From a virus, in IMG/VR virus record IMGVR_UViG_3300032770_000062, positions 1-37,167 of that record: 37,167 bases of DNA; one strand, written 5' to 3'. Under the pieces are notes generated by a model that worked only from the letters and a program-made list of their open reading frames with translations, was not told the DNA's origin and did no database searches. Below are positions 26,940 through 37,167 of the stretch, piece by piece. Every line of letters starts with the position of its first letter. The stretch's first letter is position 1. The position numbers and the translations under genes were made by a program.

Positions 26940-27887
26940 TTACTCCTTTGGCGTCTGGGCAGGCTCGACGGGTCTACCATGAACAGAACACGCCTCTGTG
27001 CTGATGATGTTTGTACCGGAGCCTTGACAGGTACACCGCGTCTGCTCACTGGCCCCCGCGAGGGCGGCTTCATAATGGGGTATCTCCATCCAAGCCTCTA
27101 CGTTGTCCCATGCACGCGCATTGCGCGGATGCTCACTTCGAGGTCTTCCGTCGTACCAGAAGATGCCGTCTCCACTTCCATTCCTGCGAACATGATTGCG
27201 GGTGTGAACGATATAGTGGCCCGGTTGGGCGGGCTTCTCAGCAGGCCATCTATGCCAAGGTCCCGTCGTCTCCTTGGGCGTCTCGGGGTTTCGTGCTCGC
27301 CACGAGATGGCATCCCTAACGAGTGCGTCGTAGACTTCCTGCGTGATGGCGGGCGCGTGACCCCTCACTTGCTCAAGAGTGGGAACCTGCTCGGCGCTTG
27401 GTCCGCTGGTGGGGTGGCGCAAGAGAGCGAGAATCGCATCTGCTACTTCGTATCCCTTCCCGGCTCCCATGGCATTACACAAGTCGGAATTGCTGTCCAT
27501 ATATGCCCAATAGATACGATCCCGCAACCCACTTGCCCCGCCCTCGTACTTGGCGGCCAGTTCATCGCGTATCTCCTCGGTGGCGCTTGGTCCGCTGGCG
27601 GGGTGAGCAAGAATAGCATCCATCTTGTCGCAATGCTCTTTCACCACCTTAATCATCATCCAAGCAGAAACATCGCCAGAAGGAAGACCGAACTTGAAGC
27701 GTTCCATCTCCGCATCTACCGCTTCCCGCAGCCCGCTTGCCCCGCCCTCGTACTTGGCGGCCAGGGCGCGGAGTTCCTTGATACATCGTTTCCTTTCGTC
27801 CTCTTCTCCTTGACCATACATTCCAAGCCCATTCGAAAGGCTTTCCCACTCCTTTGCCAGCACCAGCAGATCCGCGTGGATACTCAT
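26940..27887 (-). CDS. Repeat-module protein with DUF551-like C-terminus (315 aa)
   Basis: Residues 45-180 hold two modules, each starting AAKYEGGASGLR and ending SGPSA. The cores between differ. The C-terminal 110 residues contain WHRWPAEKPAQPGHYIV, a W-D-VEAWMEIP end and a final Cys/His-rich part (CTCQGSG...CSVHG), which resembles DUF551-type phage proteins with a zinc-binding end. The start ATG has AGGAGG 5 bases upstream in a 50-base sequence repeated at 28275. Function is unknown. The modular structure suggests recombination. Confidence 0.6.
   Translation of the reverse strand: MSIHADLLVLAKEWESLSNGLGMYGQGEEDERKRCIKELRALAAKYEGGASGLREAVDAEMERFKFGLPSGDVSAWMMIKVVKEHCDKMDAILAHPASGPSATEEIRDELAAKYEGGASGLRDRIYWAYMDSNSDLCNAMGAGKGYEVADAILALLRHPTSGPSAEQVPTLEQVRGHAPAITQEVYDALVRDAISWRARNPETPKETTGPWHRWPAEKPAQPGHYIVHTRNHVRRNGSGDGIFWYDGRPRSEHPRNARAWDNVEAWMEIPHYEAALAGASEQTRCTCQGSGTNIISTEACSVHGRPVEPAQTPKE
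27392..27560. repeat. Recombining module 3 (borders conserved, core variable)
   Basis: The element GGCGCTTGGTCCGCTGG and its flank at 27392-27415 and the 40-base element at 27521-27560 border a unique core. The same borders enclose unrelated cores at 27582-27764 and 27956-28144. Confidence 0.7.
27582..27764. repeat. Recombining module 2
   Basis: Border elements at 27582-27604 and 27725-27764 are nearly identical to those of the other two modules. The core encodes residues between AAKYEGGASGLREA and HPASGPSA. It and its neighbour are in the same gene. Confidence 0.7.
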
Positions 27888-27912
27888 ACTTCCTCCTTTT
27901 TGTGACCGGAAA
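27863..27912. repeat. 50-base direct repeat, copy 1
   Basis: Exact match to 28275-28324. It carries the Shine-Dalgarno site, start codon and first codons (MSIHADLL) of the gene at 26940-27887 and the last codons (SGHKKEEV) of the gene upstream. Duplication of a translation start can place a new gene into the operon. Confidence 0.9.
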
Positions 27913-28228
27913 CCGTGTAGATGGATGGCACTTCTATTTCCGGCTCCCCCTGCTCGGCGCTTGGTCCGCTGGCGGGGTAGCTCCGCATGAAATCCCTTAT
28001 CGCCCGAAGGTTGGCAATTCCCCCTTGGCAGTATTCGTTTGTTGGCTCCTTGCCATGGAACTTGCAGCTATCAATCAGCGATTTCAATTCCTTTTCCATT
28101 GCCTCCCGCAGCCCACTTGCCCCGCCCTCGTACTTGGCGGCCAGGATCGCCCTCGCGATTTTGTGAGCCTTAATTCCGCGAAGCGCACTGTGCTGGTGGA
28201 TGATACGAACAATATCTACTTCGTTCAT
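27884..28228 (-). CDS. Repeat-module protein, single module (114 aa)
   Basis: The protein has an N-terminal helix region (NEVDIVRIIHQHSALRG), one AAKYEGGASGLREA module with a Cys-containing core, and the SGPSAEQ border near the end. It shares the module borders with the neighbour at 26940, so the two genes are related by duplication. ATG at 28228 overlaps the stop of the stub at 28225 (ATGA), and the stop overlaps the next ATG. Longer starts at 28273 would run through the stub. Function unknown. Confidence 0.6.
   Translation of the reverse strand: MNEVDIVRIIHQHSALRGIKAHKIARAILAAKYEGGASGLREAMEKELKSLIDSCKFHGKEPTNEYCQGGIANLRAIRDFMRSYPASGPSAEQGEPEIEVPSIYTVSGHKKEEV
27956..28144. repeat. Recombining module 1
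   Basis: Border elements at 27956-27978 and 28105-28144 match the other modules with few mismatches. It is in a separate gene (27884-28228). The core encodes a Cys- and His-containing helix region not seen in modules 2 and 3. Confidence 0.7.
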
Positions 28229-28299
28229 ACGCGGGCTCCCTGCAGCAGATCGATACCACCACAGAACGGACACGCCAGCAGATCCGCGTGGATACTCAT
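28225..28299 (-). pseudogene. 24-codon stub with CPFCGG motif (Lar-like remnant)
   Basis: The reading frame starts with the duplicated MSIHADLL codons and goes on with ACPFCGGIDLL, the zinc-knuckle typical of Lar-type restriction-alleviation proteins, then stops. A good AGGAGG precedes it and the stop overlaps the next ATG. It is probably the remains of a Lar-like gene cut by recombination, kept because it couples translation. A functional 24-residue peptide is possible. Confidence 0.45.
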
Positions 28300-28324
28300 A
28301 CTTCCTCCTTTTTGTGACCGGAAA
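28275..28324. repeat. 50-base direct repeat, copy 2
   Basis: Exact match to 27863-27912. It supplies the start of the 24-codon stub at 28225-28299. The two copies differ at once outside these limits. Confidence 0.9.
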
Positions 28325-31258: not shown

Positions 31259-31870
31259 TTAGAAGATCTCGATTTCCTTTTCTGTCGGCGGCCTACCTTC
31301 GACCTTTCCCGCATCTACCCATCCACGTTCCGCTATCTTGTCTGTCTCTTTGTTCTCGTTGACTATCTGCTTCTCAATCATTTTCTGGACGCGGCCCGGT
31401 ACATAGACCGGATCTGTCTCCAAGGAGAAGGGCGCAGTCATCGGTATGAGCTTCCCGTCCTGCATGATTACAGCTTTCCGAATCCCTGCGATATCTGCAA
31501 AGCCTTTGTCATTATGCACGATGGACAGGATGGCCGCCGAACCTTTGATCTTCTTGATGTTCCAGCCTCGAAGTTCATACTCGTTGAATGGCTTTCCGCG
31601 CCACGCCTCAAGATCCTTCCGAAGGTTGCTCTTGGCTGAGAGAGACGCTGTGTAGGGCCGAGTACCTATCAACATGCGCTTCCCCTGGAACGGCCCCGCC
31701 GAGTAACGGACATCAATCTCAAAGTAAATCATCAACTGAGGCTTGATGCCATAGGGCGTTTCCTGGAGGCCAAGATTGAATACCTCAAAGCATACACCAA
31801 TGGTATCCCCCGGCGGCGGCAATTCCCGGTCAAATTGGGGAGAATCCTTGATAATCAGTTCATCACTCAT
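31259..31870 (-). CDS. Single-strand DNA-binding-like phage protein (203 aa)
   Basis: PPPGDTIGVCFEVFNLGLQET, a beta-rich middle and LSAKSNLRKDLEAWRGKPF plus SIVHNDKGFADI match a group of phage proteins near recombination genes thought to bind single-stranded DNA or assist recombination. The acidic C-terminus (PTEKEIEIF) resembles that of SSB proteins. ATG at 31870 is chosen over a longer start because of AGGAGAAGG before it and the overlap with the gene at 31867. Confidence 0.55.
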   Translation of the reverse strand: MSDELIIKDSPQFDRELPPPGDTIGVCFEVFNLGLQETPYGIKPQLMIYFEIDVRYSAGPFQGKRMLIGTRPYTASLSAKSNLRKDLEAWRGKPFNEYELRGWNIKKIKGSAAILSIVHNDKGFADIAGIRKAVIMQDGKLIPMTAPFSLETDPVYVPGRVQKMIEKQIVNENKETDKIAERGWVDAGKVEGRPPTEKEIEIF

Positions 31871-32007
31871 ACCTTCTCCTTTACCTTCTCCTTTCCACAC
31901 TTAGCACATCGCCATCCCTTCGCGGTTCCGTTATGAACCCTCATACCCTTACCGTATTTTTTATCCATGTACTCATCATCACACGTGCACTTCAAAATAG
32001 CTGTCAT
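31867..32007 (-). CDS. Zinc-ribbon protein (46 aa)
   Basis: CTCDDEYMDKKYGKGMRVHNGT and WRCAKCGKE form a CxC...CxxC zinc ribbon, a pattern seen often in phage accessory genes. AAGGAGG is upstream, and ATGA overlaps lie at both ends. It would bind zinc and perhaps nucleic acid or a protein partner. Confidence 0.65.
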   Translation of the reverse strand: MTAILKCTCDDEYMDKKYGKGMRVHNGTAKGWRCAKCGKEKVKEKV

Positions 32008-32469: not shown

Positions 32470-33081
32470 CTATATGGCCGGTGCTTTCGTATAATGCTTG
32501 CGCACTATATTTGCACACTGCTTCAATACCTTTTTTCGTTCTGTGATGTAGGCGGCGGCGTAGGCGGCGTCGGCGGCGTTGGCGGCGGCGGCGGCGGCGT
32601 AGGCGGCGTCGGCGGCGGCGGTGTTGGCGGCGTCGGCGGCGGCGGCGTTGGAGGAGGCGTAGGCGGCGTCGGCGGCGGCGGCGGCGGCGGTGGCGGCGGC
32701 GTAGGAGGAGGCGTAGGCGGCGGCGGTGGCGGCGGCGTAGGAGGAGGCGGAGGCGGCGGCGGCGGCGTAGGCATTGGCGGCGGCGTTCCTTACTTCCTCT
32801 ATTGTCGCTTCTCCCTTTGTCCACGCCTCGGAGGTCTCGATGCACTTCAGCACGCGAGGATCTTTCGTATATGGCAGCGCAAATCTTGCACATTCGCAGG
32901 CGACCAGAACCAGAGGTTTTCTGCTGTCGCTCCACGGATCTCCCGCTGTTTTACCGATAAGCCATAACATCCAGTCCCCACGCTTGCAGAACGACCATGC
33001 CGTTTCTTCGTCAGCCTGTCCAAATGCCCACTCGACCGCCTCACTGCAAGCCCCCAGCGACCGCAATTTCGATACATCCAT
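32470..33081 (-). CDS. Imm5-like helical protein with Ala/Tyr repeat array (203 aa)
   Basis: The first 100 residues (EAVEWAFG, WLIGKTAGDP, LVACECARFALPYTKDPRVLKCIETSEAW) fit a family related to Imm5-type immunity proteins. From residue 101 to 180 there is a repeat array of AAYA, ASSYA and ADAA units. Its DNA is a run of GCGGCGGCGTAGG-like triplets. A basic end follows. The helical array may be a solenoid of variable length. A similar array is in the unrelated protein at 34152. Function unknown; toxin immunity is only suggested by the family. Confidence 0.6.
   Translation of the reverse strand: MDVSKLRSLGACSEAVEWAFGQADEETAWSFCKRGDWMLWLIGKTAGDPWSDSRKPLVLVACECARFALPYTKDPRVLKCIETSEAWTKGEATIEEVRNAAANAYAAAAASASSYAAATAAAYASSYAAATAAAAAADAAYASSNAAAADAANTAAADAAYAAAAAANAADAAYAAAYITERKKVLKQCANIVRKHYTKAPAI
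32550..32785. repeat. Ala/Tyr-coding triplet repeat array 1
   Basis: On the plus strand the bases alternate GGC, GGA and GTA/GTT units with few other codons for over 230 bases. It makes long spurious Gly-rich, Arg-rich and Pro-rich frames on other frames. Repeat units vary, and slippage or recombination could alter the length. Confidence 0.8.
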
Positions 33082-33927: not shown

Positions 33928-34155
33928 CTAGTGCTCCTGATGCGCGCCTACAAATACATATCCCGATCTCCTATAGCATTTGGGATACCTTTGCGCCTTC
34001 TGGGTCCATGGTGGAACTTGATCCATGGCAACTTTCTTGCGCCATATGATCTCCATAGAGTCCAGCATCCAGCATCTATGAGAACCACCAAGACCGTGAT
34101 TGTAGTCATCGTTATAACAGCCCGCACAATGCTTCAACTTCTCCCTGTCTGTCAT
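33928..34155 (-). CDS. Conserved phage Cys-rich protein, VDQ/PPW type (75 aa)
   Basis: CAGCYNDDYNHGLGGSHRCWMLDSM, MDQVPPWTQKAQRYPKCYRRSGYVFV match a widespread small phage protein with two Cys pairs. It is likely a zinc-binding fold. No function is known. Coupled with ATGA to the gene at 34152. Confidence 0.65.
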   Translation of the reverse strand: MTDREKLKHCAGCYNDDYNHGLGGSHRCWMLDSMEIIWRKKVAMDQVPPWTQKAQRYPKCYRRSGYVFVGAHQEH

Positions 34156-34814
34156 TTTCGCGCCTCCCTCTTGGCTGCCTTCTCAATAGCCGTAACAAGC
34201 CAACCGGCGTACTTTTTCTTTGCCTTTTCTCTATCGGCGGCGTTGGCGGCGGAAGCGGCGGCGTAGGCGGCGTAGGCGGCGGCGGTGGCGGAGGCGTAGG
34301 CGGCGGCGTAGGCGGAGGCGGAGGCGTAGGCGGCGGCGGAGGCGTAGGCGGCGGCGTTGGCGGCGGAGTAGGCGAAGTAGGCGGCGGTGTTGGCGGCGGA
34401 GTAGGCGGCGTTGGCGGCGACGTAAGTTCTATCTTTTCCCCTTATCCACAAATCAGCCCATGCGTTCCACGCCTTGTCATTGCAGACCTTCTTTGTTGTC
34501 TTCACAGCATCGGTCGCCACACGAATCGACCACGCTAAAATGATTTTCTTCGCGTCCAGCGTCCACAGCACTTTACGATTTCGGCAAACCAGCTTTCGCT
34601 CATCCTGCTCCATGTCTCCGCTGCACTCCACGCGAGAAACTTGAAATCCCGGTGCAAACCACAGAGCATCCTGAATGTCTACGCTTGCGTGATATCCCCT
34701 GACGCACATTTTCAGATTGCCCTCGTACTTGTAGGTCTTTCCTACTTTTAGCGGCTGACCGTCTCTCAGCTTCATCCCGTCAGTAAAATGCCATGCCAGT
34801 ACTTTCTTAGTCAT
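34152..34814 (-). CDS. DUF7666-like protein with Ala/Tyr repeat array (220 aa)
   Basis: The first 100 residues (VLAWHFTDGMKLRDGQPL, CVRGYHAS, ALWFAPG) match a phage and bacterial family of unknown role (DUF7666-type as I recall it). Residues about 127-195 are an array of AAYA, SAAN and ASA units like the one in the protein at 32470, with similar DNA. A basic end (REKAKKKYAGWL) follows. The shared array on an unrelated N-terminal domain suggests exchange of the repeat between genes. Confidence 0.6.
   Translation of the reverse strand: MTKKVLAWHFTDGMKLRDGQPLKVGKTYKYEGNLKMCVRGYHASVDIQDALWFAPGFQVSRVECSGDMEQDERKLVCRNRKVLWTLDAKKIILAWSIRVATDAVKTTKKVCNDKAWNAWADLWIRGKDRTYVAANAAYSAANTAAYFAYSAANAAAYASAAAYASASAYAAAYASATAAAYAAYAAASAANAADREKAKKKYAGWLVTAIEKAAKREARK
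34237..34430. repeat. Ala/Tyr-coding triplet repeat array 2
   Basis: GGCGGC, GGAGGC and GTAGGC units run for about 190 bases on the plus strand, as in the array at 32550-32785, with long Arg-rich and Gly-rich spurious frames. The two arrays lie in separate genes 1.5 kb apart. Confidence 0.8.
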
Positions 34815-35058: not shown

Positions 35059-35130
35059 TTTACACACTCCAGTGCAGAACGCAAGAAAAATCTTCCCTAA
35101 GTTATCACTAGGTCATAAAGACACACTTTG

Positions 35131-35163
35131 AGTCATTTTGACTGTCAGGAAAATCACTACAGT
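35131..35163. promoter_or_regulatory. Inverted repeats in the divergent intergenic region
   Basis: AGTCA-TTT-TGACT (35131-35143) is a perfect dyad with a 3-base centre. It is joined by ACTGT (35141-35145) and ACAGT (35159-35163), 13 bases apart. These sit between the leftward and rightward operons, a typical site for a regulator. No -35/-10 pair for the leftward operon is clear. The ribbon-helix-helix proteins are candidate binders. Confidence 0.4.
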
Positions 35164-35181
35164 TAAGAATGAAAAAGGTAC

Positions 35182-35212
35182 TTGACATGGTTTTGGTGTA
35201 ACCTAGTAAGAT
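35182..35212 (+). promoter_or_regulatory. Promoter for the rightward leader and operon
   Basis: TTGACA (35182-35187) is a perfect -35. Possible -10 boxes are TAGTAA (16-base spacer) and TAAGAT (19-base spacer); neither is perfect. It points into the 250-base leader. Weak -10 and ambiguous spacing suggest control by a factor. Confidence 0.5.
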
Positions 35213-35214
35213 AG

Positions 35215-35467
35215 CAAACAAGGGTGGGCTTAAGGACCATCCAGCTTTCGGATAGAGAAAAACAGAAAAGCGGCCGGTAGACTTTCAAGACATACGGAAA
35301 ATAGTTCTTGTAATGTGAGACGGTTGTTGATAGACTTCTGGATGCTACCGGGTGATGAACATCATCTGGCTTAAGGGTTGACCTACATCATGGTAAGGTG
35401 GTGTGAGTCAACGGGGTCTCCGTTGTTGGCCGCCGAGAGTCTTACCGCTCAGAGCGGCCTTTTTCTT
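35215..35467 (+). ncRNA. Structured leader with alternative hairpins and terminator
   Basis: This region lacks a protein gene. A hairpin near 35223-35242 (GGTGG with CCATCC), GATG-AA-CATC at 35354-35363, GTTGAC (35377-35382) with GTCAAC (35407-35412) and CAACGG (35409-35414) with CCGTTG (35420-35425) can form; the last two share bases 35409-35412 and exclude one another. A terminator follows. GGCTTAAGG occurs twice (from about 35227 and 35368). The set resembles an attenuator or a terminated small RNA. Confidence 0.5.
35428..35467 (+). terminator. Intrinsic terminator in the leader of the rightward operon
   Basis: GGCCGC (35428-35433) pairs with GCGGCC (35454-35459), with a further GAG/CTC pair inside, and TTTTTCTT follows at 35460. 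It lies 15 bases before the GTG of the first gene, so expression needs read-through, antitermination or control of this hairpin. Confidence 0.7.
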
Positions 35468-35481
35468 CTAGGAGCGTAGAA

Positions 35482-35916
35482 GTGAAGTGGAACGGAGAAT
35501 CATTCAGTGCTAACTACGTAATAACACACTTTGACGGAGATGTAATGTTTGTCCTGAAAAAGGACGCTGAGGCTGAAATAGAGAAGGCCCGCAGAGAAAG
35601 CTATGAAAATGGTACATCAGATGTAATAAGAAGGATGGAAGAGGCCCGCGCCAAGGAACGAGAAAGCATTCTTGCATTTGCTAGAAGTGAGAATCTTTCT
35701 AATGGCGAGCCTGGATATTTCGGAGAGGGATGGAGAAAATCCAGAAACCTGATCATAAACTTCATCAAGTCTCGCTCCGGTGGCTCACAGAGTAAGCCTA
35801 TTCAGAAAATTTCATGGGAGGCTACTTGGGAGCATACAGACTCATGGGTTGTCAAGAAGTTCAACGAACTCATAGACGCTGTTAACGAGCTAAGGGCTAA
35901 AGGAGATAAGCAATGA
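35482..35916 (+). CDS. First gene of the rightward operon, coiled-coil protein (144 aa)
   Basis: A short N-terminal beta region (FSANYVITHFDGDVMFVLKKD) is followed by a charged helix (about residues 29-70), then a polar middle and a helical end. It starts with GTG at 35482, 7 bases after AGGAG and directly behind the leader terminator. It overlaps the next gene in ATGA. No family recognised. As the first early gene it may act on host functions. Confidence 0.55.
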   Translation: MKWNGESFSANYVITHFDGDVMFVLKKDAEAEIEKARRESYENGTSDVIRRMEEARAKERESILAFARSENLSNGEPGYFGEGWRKSRNLIINFIKSRSGGSQSKPIQKISWEATWEHTDSWVVKKFNELIDAVNELRAKGDKQ

Positions 35917-36053
35917 AGTTCCCAGATCCGAAACAATGGCTCATAGAGAACATTGGCCCGCTTCCAAAAGAGACCGAGAAAAGAGATGAATGGCTCACAC
36001 GCCTTGGCATTCTTGTTAGTTACAGCTTCGACGTGGAAAAGATGAACAAATGA
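35913..36053 (+). CDS. 46-residue protein
   Basis: The gene overlaps both neighbours (ATGA at 35913 and 36050), which argues that it is real. It is small, with MKFPDPKQWLIENIGPLPKE and a helical, charged rest. No domain seen. Confidence 0.55.
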   Translation: MKFPDPKQWLIENIGPLPKETEKRDEWLTRLGILVSYSFDVEKMNK

Positions 36054-36208
36054 CTAAGAACGTGAGAAGAGACAAGTACCTGGCCTTGATCTCCCTAGCT
36101 GAGGAGTTCCTAAGAGAAGAAGGCTTAGAGAACGGCGAGAGAACTACCATGCAAGAGGTAGTCTCCCTGGTGAGAGGCCGCCTCAATAGCCTGAAAGGCA
36201 AGAAGTGA
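36050..36208 (+). CDS. 52-residue helical protein
   Basis: Two helices (KYLALISLAEEFLREEGL and TTMQEVVSLVRGRLNSLK) with a helix-turn-helix look and a basic end, which might bind DNA, but the signal is weak. It is coupled to both neighbours. Its 3' end is repeated at 1-36. Confidence 0.5.
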   Translation: MTKNVRRDKYLALISLAEEFLREEGLENGERTTMQEVVSLVRGRLNSLKGKK

Positions 36209-36320
36209 TGCCTCTTTGGTTCTGGGCCCTCTGCGGGGCGGCCGCCTATCTTACATTCCTTCTTGTCGTTGGCTGGTTAGTATCTCGAATACCACCGAGT
36301 ATGAGGTAATCCATGAGCCG
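36173..36320. repeat. Direct repeat of 1-148 (left flank, complete copy)
   Basis: See the copy at the window start: 127 bases exact then three mismatches up to 36320. Downstream of it the sequence encodes allele B of the regulator. Confidence 0.9.
36208..36309 (+). CDS. 33-residue membrane peptide (copy B)
   Basis: Same gene as 36-137, with one changed residue near the end. A single hydrophobic helix of about 25 residues. The ATG overlaps the upstream stop. The stop is 3 bases before the regulator ATG, so the two genes are probably co-translated. Confidence 0.55.
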   Translation: MPLWFWALCGAAAYLTFLLVVGWLVSRIPPSMR

Positions 36321-36525
36321 TGAAGTAAGATTCAGCTTCGATAGCGAAGAACAGAAGGCCGAGTTTGAAGCCTATGCCAAGGGTAAGGGCATGAGCCTTT
36401 CAGGTCTCTCAAAGATGGCCGTATTTCAATACAAAGCCAAATATGCCCTAAGCGAGGCGCAAAAGGCTGGAATCAAGAGAGGGCGCGGCAGACCACCCAA
36501 AGAAAATAATACTGTACAGTCTTGA
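36313..36525 (+). CDS. Ribbon-helix-helix regulator with AT-hook-like tail, allele B (70 aa)
   Basis: VRFSFDSEEQKAEFEAYAKGKGMSLSGLSKMAVFQY has the strand-helix-helix pattern of Arc/CopG-type DNA-binding proteins. The tail KRGRGRPPKE matches the AT-hook core (RGRP), a minor-groove contact. Combined, these give a small DNA-binding protein likely to repress a nearby promoter. The dyad at 36959-36976 is a candidate site. It takes the place of a different ribbon-helix-helix protein at 141-314 in the other variant. Confidence 0.7.
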   Translation: MSREVRFSFDSEEQKAEFEAYAKGKGMSLSGLSKMAVFQYKAKYALSEAQKAGIKRGRGRPPKENNTVQS

Positions 36526-36547
36526 TTTTTTGGGATAGACTGTAGCC

Positions 36548-36952
36548 ATGGCATACAAGAATAAGGCTACTCGTAATGCAGCACAGAATAAACATCGTCG
36601 TGAACATCCTGAAATACGACAAAGATACATTTATAAAAACACAGCCCTTCAGAGGAAACGGCAAGCAATTAAGAGGATTAGGAATAGAGAACTTGTATTT
36701 GATCACTATGGTTGGAAGTGTGAATGTTGTGGAGAAGATCATAAAGAATTCTTGGCCATCGACCATATTGATGGAGGAGGCAACAAACACAGACAACAGA
36801 TCGGAGTTGTAGGATCAGGATTCTATGAATGGCTAGTGAAGAACAACTTTCCAGAAGGATTTAGGACTCTATGCCATAATTGTAATTTCTCTCTAGGAGT
36901 CAAAGGTTACTGCCCTCATCATCCACCTGACTTACCATTATTTCAGACTTGA
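36548..36952 (+). CDS. HNH endonuclease, probably homing (134 aa)
   Basis: The N-terminus is basic. CECCGEDHKEFLAIDHIDGGGNKHR and later FRTLCHNCNFS form the HNH/N fold with four Cys for zinc and the DH catalytic pair. This group is found in free-standing homing endonucleases of phages. The gene is A/T-rich, unlike the neighbouring genes, and is present only in variant B. It could promote spread of the cassette by cutting the cassette-free allele. It has its own weak upstream site at TTGGGATAGACTG. Confidence 0.75.
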   Translation: MAYKNKATRNAAQNKHRREHPEIRQRYIYKNTALQRKRQAIKRIRNRELVFDHYGWKCECCGEDHKEFLAIDHIDGGGNKHRQQIGVVGSGFYEWLVKNNFPEGFRTLCHNCNFSLGVKGYCPHHPPDLPLFQT

Positions 36953-36976
36953 CTGCTATGTATACTTTAGTATACA
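36949..36976 (+). promoter_or_regulatory. Promoter with overlapping perfect operator dyad
   Basis: TTGACT (36949-36954) is followed after 16 bases by TATACA (36971-36976). TGTATACT-TT-AGTATACA (36959-36976) is a perfect dyad with a 2-base centre that covers spacer and -10, so a bound dimer would block the promoter. The transcript would run into the hairpins and terminator below. Confidence 0.6.
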
Positions 36977-36982
36977 ATTTTC

Positions 36983-37090
36983 ATGTCAGACGTAAAGCCG
37001 AGGGCGGGATAGGAGGCAGGGTACCGATGGGTACGAGTAGGCAGTCTGGCGAAGGCCGGCAGATCCTCCCAATTCGCCGGCCTTTCTTTT
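36983..37090 (+). ncRNA. Candidate small RNA with own promoter and terminator
   Basis: From the predicted start near 36983, CAGAC (36987-36991) can pair with GTCTG (37044-37048), GTACC (37021-37025) with GGTAC (37030-37034), and a terminator ends it. There is no good open frame. It exists only in variant B. It might be a regulatory RNA under the control of the local regulator. Confidence 0.45.
37051..37090 (+). terminator. Intrinsic terminator of variant B cassette
   Basis: AAGGCCGGC (37052-37060) pairs with GCCGGCCTT (37076-37084), and TCTTTT follows. It ends the HNH or small RNA transcript. The shared right flank begins just after it. Confidence 0.75.
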
Positions 37091-37167
37091 AGGTCTCGGA
37101 GGCTCTTCTCATCTTGACAACCAATCAAGATACGTGCTATGTTCTACTTCCGGCTGTATTAGACCAC
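37091..37167. repeat. Direct repeat of 451-527 (right flank at the window end)
   Basis: 77 exact bases, including the promoter at 475-504 and the first 17 bases of the structured RNA. The match runs to the last base, so the true sequence most likely continues as at 528. Confidence 0.9.

Follow-up and report, generated by a model that had tools for sequence, protein, structure and literature searches.

How does a phage express an operon whose first start codon lies immediately behind a strong intrinsic terminator? The question arises in IMGVR_UViG_3300032770_000062, a record of 37,167 bases that comes from an uncultured bacterial virus and was analysed over its full length (hereafter the window). 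Nearly all genes between 590 and 35067 point leftward, in a long unit that runs from 35067 down to ~590 and includes terminase, portal, capsid, tail and holin genes; the terminase and holin family matches, as well as the portal and capsid relatives, all fall on the leftward strand. A short rightward unit, beginning at 35482, is convergent with the end of the holin gene near 527–628. The gap between the two starts, 35068–35481, forms a divergent control region that contains a terminated leader (Table 1). Toward the leftward unit, the same gap carries an operator-like palindrome, AGTCATTTTGACT, at 35131–35143.

Table 1 Features of the predicted leader and of the rightward operon that follows it.
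Feature	Position	Strand	Details
Candidate promoter P1	35182–35212	+	−35 TTGACA 35182–35187; −10 TAAGAT 35207–35212; spacing 19
Predicted terminated leader RNA	35219–35467	+	~250 nt; gene-free by frame inspection
Hairpin H1	35222–35242	+	GGGUGG/CCAUCC stem; GGCUUAAGG in stem end and loop
First GGCTTAAGG	35227–35235	+	contains self-complementary CTTAAG 35229–35234
Candidate antiterminator strand GGTAGACTTTC	35276–35286	+	11 pairs with 35435–35446
Hairpin H3	35348–35369	+	9 pairs; loop GAAC; P 0.98
Second GGCTTAAGG	35368–35376	+	CTTAAG 35370–35375 is the unpaired H3–H4 linker
Hairpin H4	35377–35412	+	14 pairs; apical loop GGUAAG 35392–35397
Hairpin H5	35409–35425	+	CAACGG/CCGUUG; excludes base of H4
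Intrinsic terminator T1	35428–35467	+	hairpin 35428–35459; T run 35460–35467; apical loop CUUACC 35441–35446
First operon gene	35482–35916	+	144 aa; GTG start; good ribosome-binding site
Rest of operon	35913–36525	+	46 aa (35913), 52 aa (36050), 33 aa (36208), 70 aa (36313)

The ends of the record match each other: 1–148 aligns with 36173–36320 at 98%, and 451–527 with 37091–37167 at 100%, the second match stopping exactly at the record's last base. The two ends (1–527 and 36173–37167) are alleles of one locus, the right-end allele with an HNH endonuclease gene (36548–36949) and the left-end allele without it, and on the strength of this match the genome most likely closes to ~36.6 kb; IMG/VR classes the record ends as linear. 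Elsewhere in the record, two proteins (32470–33081 and 34152–34814, the latter with a DUF7666 domain) have long alanine-rich repeats that are alike in DNA; the 189-base family to which they belong was counted in 28 overlapping copies. An exact 50-base direct repeat (27863–27912 and 28275–28324, 412 bases apart) sits amid further related repeats at 27386–28145.

A preliminary description of this DNA had proposed that a perfect −35 hexamer opens a leader of ~250 bases without a gene, and this held on closer analysis. TTGACA stands at 35182, and inspection of 35190–35467 yielded no convincing gene, the longest + strand frame having 33 codons; none of the starts in that interval has Shine–Dalgarno pairing to match that of GTG 35482 (best −5.7 versus −7.7 kcal/mol). 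The hexamer by itself is weak evidence because the record's + strand holds 12 copies of it, and the best candidate −10 element, with 4 of 6 matches, is weak and lies at long spacing. A standard promoter scan, which allows spacings of 16–18 and so leaves P1 outside its range and unlisted, found no + strand site between 34541 and 36949, and hence none between T1 and GTG 35482. From the position of P1, transcription is expected to start near 35219, and we infer that P1 is active.

The same description had placed an intrinsic terminator just before the first start codon. T1 bears this out, as its T run ends 14 bases before GTG 35482 and the site is strong: the hairpin folds at −15.9 kcal/mol, T1 ranks 4th among 646 candidate sites in the record by hairpin-plus-T score, its T score is the highest among the 25 sites listed, and it was equalled in 1 of 1,000 dinucleotide shuffles of the gap. 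All genes before 35182 point the other way, so the transcript that T1 is positioned to stop is one begun within the gap itself. A further hairpin, CUUCUA/UAGAAG (35465–35482, + strand), has in its loop the GGAG that belongs to the ribosome-binding site; the fold of 35464–35481 is within chance (z −0.4).

The overlaps ATGA, ATGA and TGATG that join the first four operon genes suggest that these genes are real and lie on one shared transcript. ATG 35545 is the alternative start of the first gene, if one is used. The AlphaFold model of the 144-aa product, with a mean pLDDT of 50, was set aside, and the protein has no relatives in IMG/VR or phages. The 70-aa protein, a possible AT-hook DNA-binding protein, has no relatives in phages, the four small operon proteins searched together gave no match in IMG/VR, and no family match marks any of the downstream genes as metabolic.

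Since no promoter-like site lies between T1 and GTG 35482, polymerase must pass T1 to reach the first gene; expression of the operon thus probably depends on some means of getting through this stop. The simplest account would be a leader that is terminated by default, with read-through that is either regulated or leaky. We give about an even chance to this arrangement being a conditional transcription attenuator, in which the leader is terminated by default and the operon is expressed on read-through. Polymerase would start at P1, at ~35219, make a gene-free leader of ~250 nt and stop at T1 (~35460–35467), its presumed default, releasing a structured RNA; the operon from 35482 would be expressed only when T1 is read through. 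Read-through would come from a phage or host antitermination factor on polymerase (N-, Q- or p7-like in effect) or from leakage, not from a ligand. By analogy with lambdoid phages, an antitermination factor is the most likely agent. The preliminary description had seen the layout of an attenuator, riboswitch, antitermination site or separate small RNA; a terminated leader ahead of an operon is well supported, and attenuation or antitermination is the best reading of it, there being no other promoter-like site for the first gene. A known riboswitch is unsupported, given the lack of an Rfam match, and a ligand is not indicated as the regulator.

The leader carries two general marks of an attenuator, namely a terminator between promoter and first gene, with no gene and no second promoter-like site in that interval. 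An antiterminator fold is the hallmark of self-contained attenuators but does not define those in which a factor bound to polymerase drives read-through, and here no antiterminator fold beyond chance was found. The candidate strand GGTAGACTTTC does pair with high probability (P 0.93–0.94) in a transcript ending at 35452, and the antiterminator fold lies just 1.5 kcal/mol above the best one. We rejected this as evidence of a switch: an equal or smaller energy gap arose in 335 of 600 upstream shuffles and, elsewhere in the record, in 80 of 147 segments. Measured directly, the duplex strength of the upstream sequence with the terminator was not significant (P 0.066), and GCGGCC at 35270, an upstream copy of the terminator arm, reached P ≤0.26 in the transcripts tested.

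The leader as a whole folds somewhat better than chance (z −1.9 and −2.1 in two runs), with the surplus in its 3′ half (35340–35460, z −2.7; 5′ half, 35212–35340, z −0.5). The H1 region (35210–35252, z −1.2) is within chance. H4 is the most striking single hairpin, at −16.0 kcal/mol with z −4.0 and 0 of 200 shuffles as stable. Mutually exclusive hairpins had also been proposed, and base-sharing pairs do exist: H4 and H5 overlap in CAAC, and a long-range stem between CCGGTAG at 35274 and CTACCGG at 35345 overlaps H3 in CCGG. The competition is one-sided, however; these pairs are poor switches on energy alone because H4 is preferred over H5 by 5.1–5.5 kcal/mol and H3 over the long-range stem by 7.4 kcal/mol.

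The repeat reported within the leader fared similarly. The 9-base GGCTTAAGG is indeed present at both 35227 and 35368, but such a repeat is within chance, with a shuffle probability of 0.08 (8% of 2,000 shuffled leaders), and is also found in 76 of 289 windows of the record. Its CTTAAG core occurs twice in the record against 3.3 expected. We rejected this rarity as a special signal, as it is explained by a general avoidance of six-base palindromes (287 found versus 493 expected by a Markov estimate), a depletion that looks as if the genome were under restriction pressure.

One feature was new relative to the preliminary description: the apical loop of H4 is complementary to that of T1 at all 6 bases. 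A 6-base loop–loop match was reached in 3 of 1,500 shuffled leaders and, among 568 overlapping windows on both strands, in 2, both of which hold H4–T1 itself; the match was spotted after looking, so its true significance is lower than these counts. An energy model that permits up to two loop contacts puts the leader at −90.6 kcal/mol (z −3.2), lower than any of 300 shuffles. The energy gain from the contacts, 7.0, was reached by 1 of 300 shuffles and is unusual but not unique, because it is also attained in 4 of the 186 windows taken from the rest of the record. In the attenuator, contact between the two loops may pin the terminator hairpin or protect the released RNA. The complementary loops appear to be the leader's one unusual feature.

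A second contact, between the CTTAAG copies in the H1 loop and the H3–H4 linker, is possible because a fold that has H1, H3, H4 and T1 and leaves all the loop and CTTAAG bases free lies 1.9 kcal/mol above the minimum; the best-scored two-contact model picked a different second contact. A bolder form of the argument, which we consider quite improbable, would make this a new class of leader whose terminator is built into a tertiary fold. The H4 loop would kiss the T1 loop, the CUUAAG copies would clamp H1 to the H3–H4 linker, and a protein or RNA capturing either loop would decide between termination and read-through.

We searched for relatives of the leader and of its parts. No Rfam covariance model matched the leader at gathering score, the only other match being an irrelevant snoRNA (E 0.67), and the leader DNA has no relatives in phage or plasmid records. 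The virus has no known close relatives; the nearest found are five IMG/VR contigs and one Elusimicrobia MAG contig, with terminase, portal and capsid proteins at ~49–62% identity. Four of the IMG/VR contigs gave neither a DNA nor a model match to the leader, and their gene order stops short of the region; neither the fifth, of 5.8 kb, nor the MAG contig, of 9.7 kb, was matched by the model, and at these lengths they cannot extend to it. As these fragments do not reach the region, their silence is no evidence against conservation of the leader. Twelve loci with relatives of the protein encoded at 31259–31900 hold no leader-like DNA.

A covariance model of 35345–35467, built from one sequence given twice, was run against the window and 43 of 51 loci (leaving out the leader's own locus, L001, and the likely duplicates L010, L011, L015, L016, L019, L020 and L021); it found the window only, with the next best match at E 0.33. 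Two copies of GGCTTAAGG spaced 115–145 bases apart occur in 27 IMG/VR stretches, which we rejected as leader relatives after inspection by eye: they are CRISPR arrays, tRNA-like sequences, tandem repeats or apparently coding. The linker and both loops combined into one IMG/VR pattern returned a single stretch, also rejected as apparently coding.

Two further structured elements lie near the record ends. At 474–592, TTGACA-18-TATGTT is followed after ~7 bases by a 12-base perfect inverted repeat (511–522 / 578–589) enclosing two hairpins, a three-way-junction element of ~80 nt in the convergent gap that adjoins the holin gene. With −34.6 kcal/mol, z −5.0 and 0 of 200 shuffles, it is folded more strongly than the leader studied here; a pattern search for it in IMG/VR returned 4 stretches, apparently coding. 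At 36949–37090, a promoter-like site overlaps the palindrome GTATACTTTAGTATAC and is followed by ~100 gene-free bases after the HNH gene that end in a strong terminator (37053–37083 plus a T run), possibly a second terminated RNA. CCTCCC occurs in the loop of this terminator and in the terminator loop of the left-end allele (430–466).

Among alternatives to the attenuator, a trans-acting small RNA gene, with P1 to T1 as its own unit, a 250-nt product whose targets would be RNAs or proteins of the host or the phage, and an operon living on leakage, is possible, if doubtful. A promoter-like site of its own, a strong terminator, a stable 3′ domain (H3–H4–T1) and the loop–loop match all speak for such a gene, and there is precedent for a terminated phage leader serving also as a small RNA, in StxS (PMC7873438). 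However, the 14 bases between T1 and the operon start, with no second promoter-like site, tie leader and operon together, structure in the 5′ half stays within chance and no homologue was found.

T1 could also be a plain terminator that keeps stray rightward transcripts, coming through the leftward unit, out of the operon, with the leader a passive untranslated region. With genes from 590 to 35067 nearly all leftward, stray antisense transcription could enter, and the repeat, which is within chance, and the ordinary antiterminator energies would fit a passive leader. An insulator, however, belongs upstream of the operon promoter, whereas the interval from T1 to the gene holds no promoter-like site, which makes this reading unlikely. 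Control of T1 by a ligand, or by ribosomes translating a short frame such as MNIIWLKG (35355) or the one of 33 codons at 35378–35479, is the least probable of all, even though H3–H4 with its linker upstream of a terminator fits the layout and the longer frame runs through T1, since no Rfam family was matched, the short frames lack good ribosome-binding sites, no family match makes the downstream genes metabolic and the antiterminator energetics are ordinary.

The attenuator reading finds its closest parallels in other leaders that are terminated ahead of an operon. The terminator layout is that of rplJL-type attenuators. With these and with transcriptional riboswitches, the phage leader has in common a structured leader and attenuation ahead of an operon, as described for Bacillus rplJL, where the attenuation is protein-controlled (PMC4538822); it differs from them in having no known family and no antiterminator beyond chance. 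The lambdoid late leader, from PR′ to tR′, is constitutively terminated before its operon as part of antitermination control, according to PMC7873438, which also presents StxS as a small RNA made from it. Antitermination by Q is covered in PMC6606751, and the leader with Q and its StxS by-product in PMC12197685. One promoter and termination before an operon are common to the lambdoid and the present leader, which resembles it in layout only. Unlike the lambdoid leader, which serves late genes, the present one precedes small genes without assigned function, and the late genes lie leftward. Searches with a set of the window proteins turned up neither a recognisable antitermination protein nor a Q-like family.

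The put RNAs of HK022 (putL and putR) offer a second comparison: as described in PMC9378689, they are ~70 nt long, form two stem-loops, bind polymerase and act on terminators up to 10 kb away. The likeness is one of description: a phage transcript that carries a structured RNA close to its start, in an antitermination context; H1 is the clear hairpin near the leader's start. Whereas put spans ~70 nt, the phage leader spans ~250 nt and itself ends in a terminator. A survey of candidate structured RNAs (PMC2864571) lists phage motifs such as manA, wcaG and c4.

Judged from its sequence, the terminated leader of this orphan phage is real and ordinary-looking, and its kind is known. If the attenuator reading holds, transcription read-through would gate the rightward operon in a group of phages about which little else has been characterised. 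Changing six bases of one loop would break the gate, and the matching change in the other loop would restore it. Such a gate would be a hint, too, that the phage or its host has an antitermination factor yet to be recognised.
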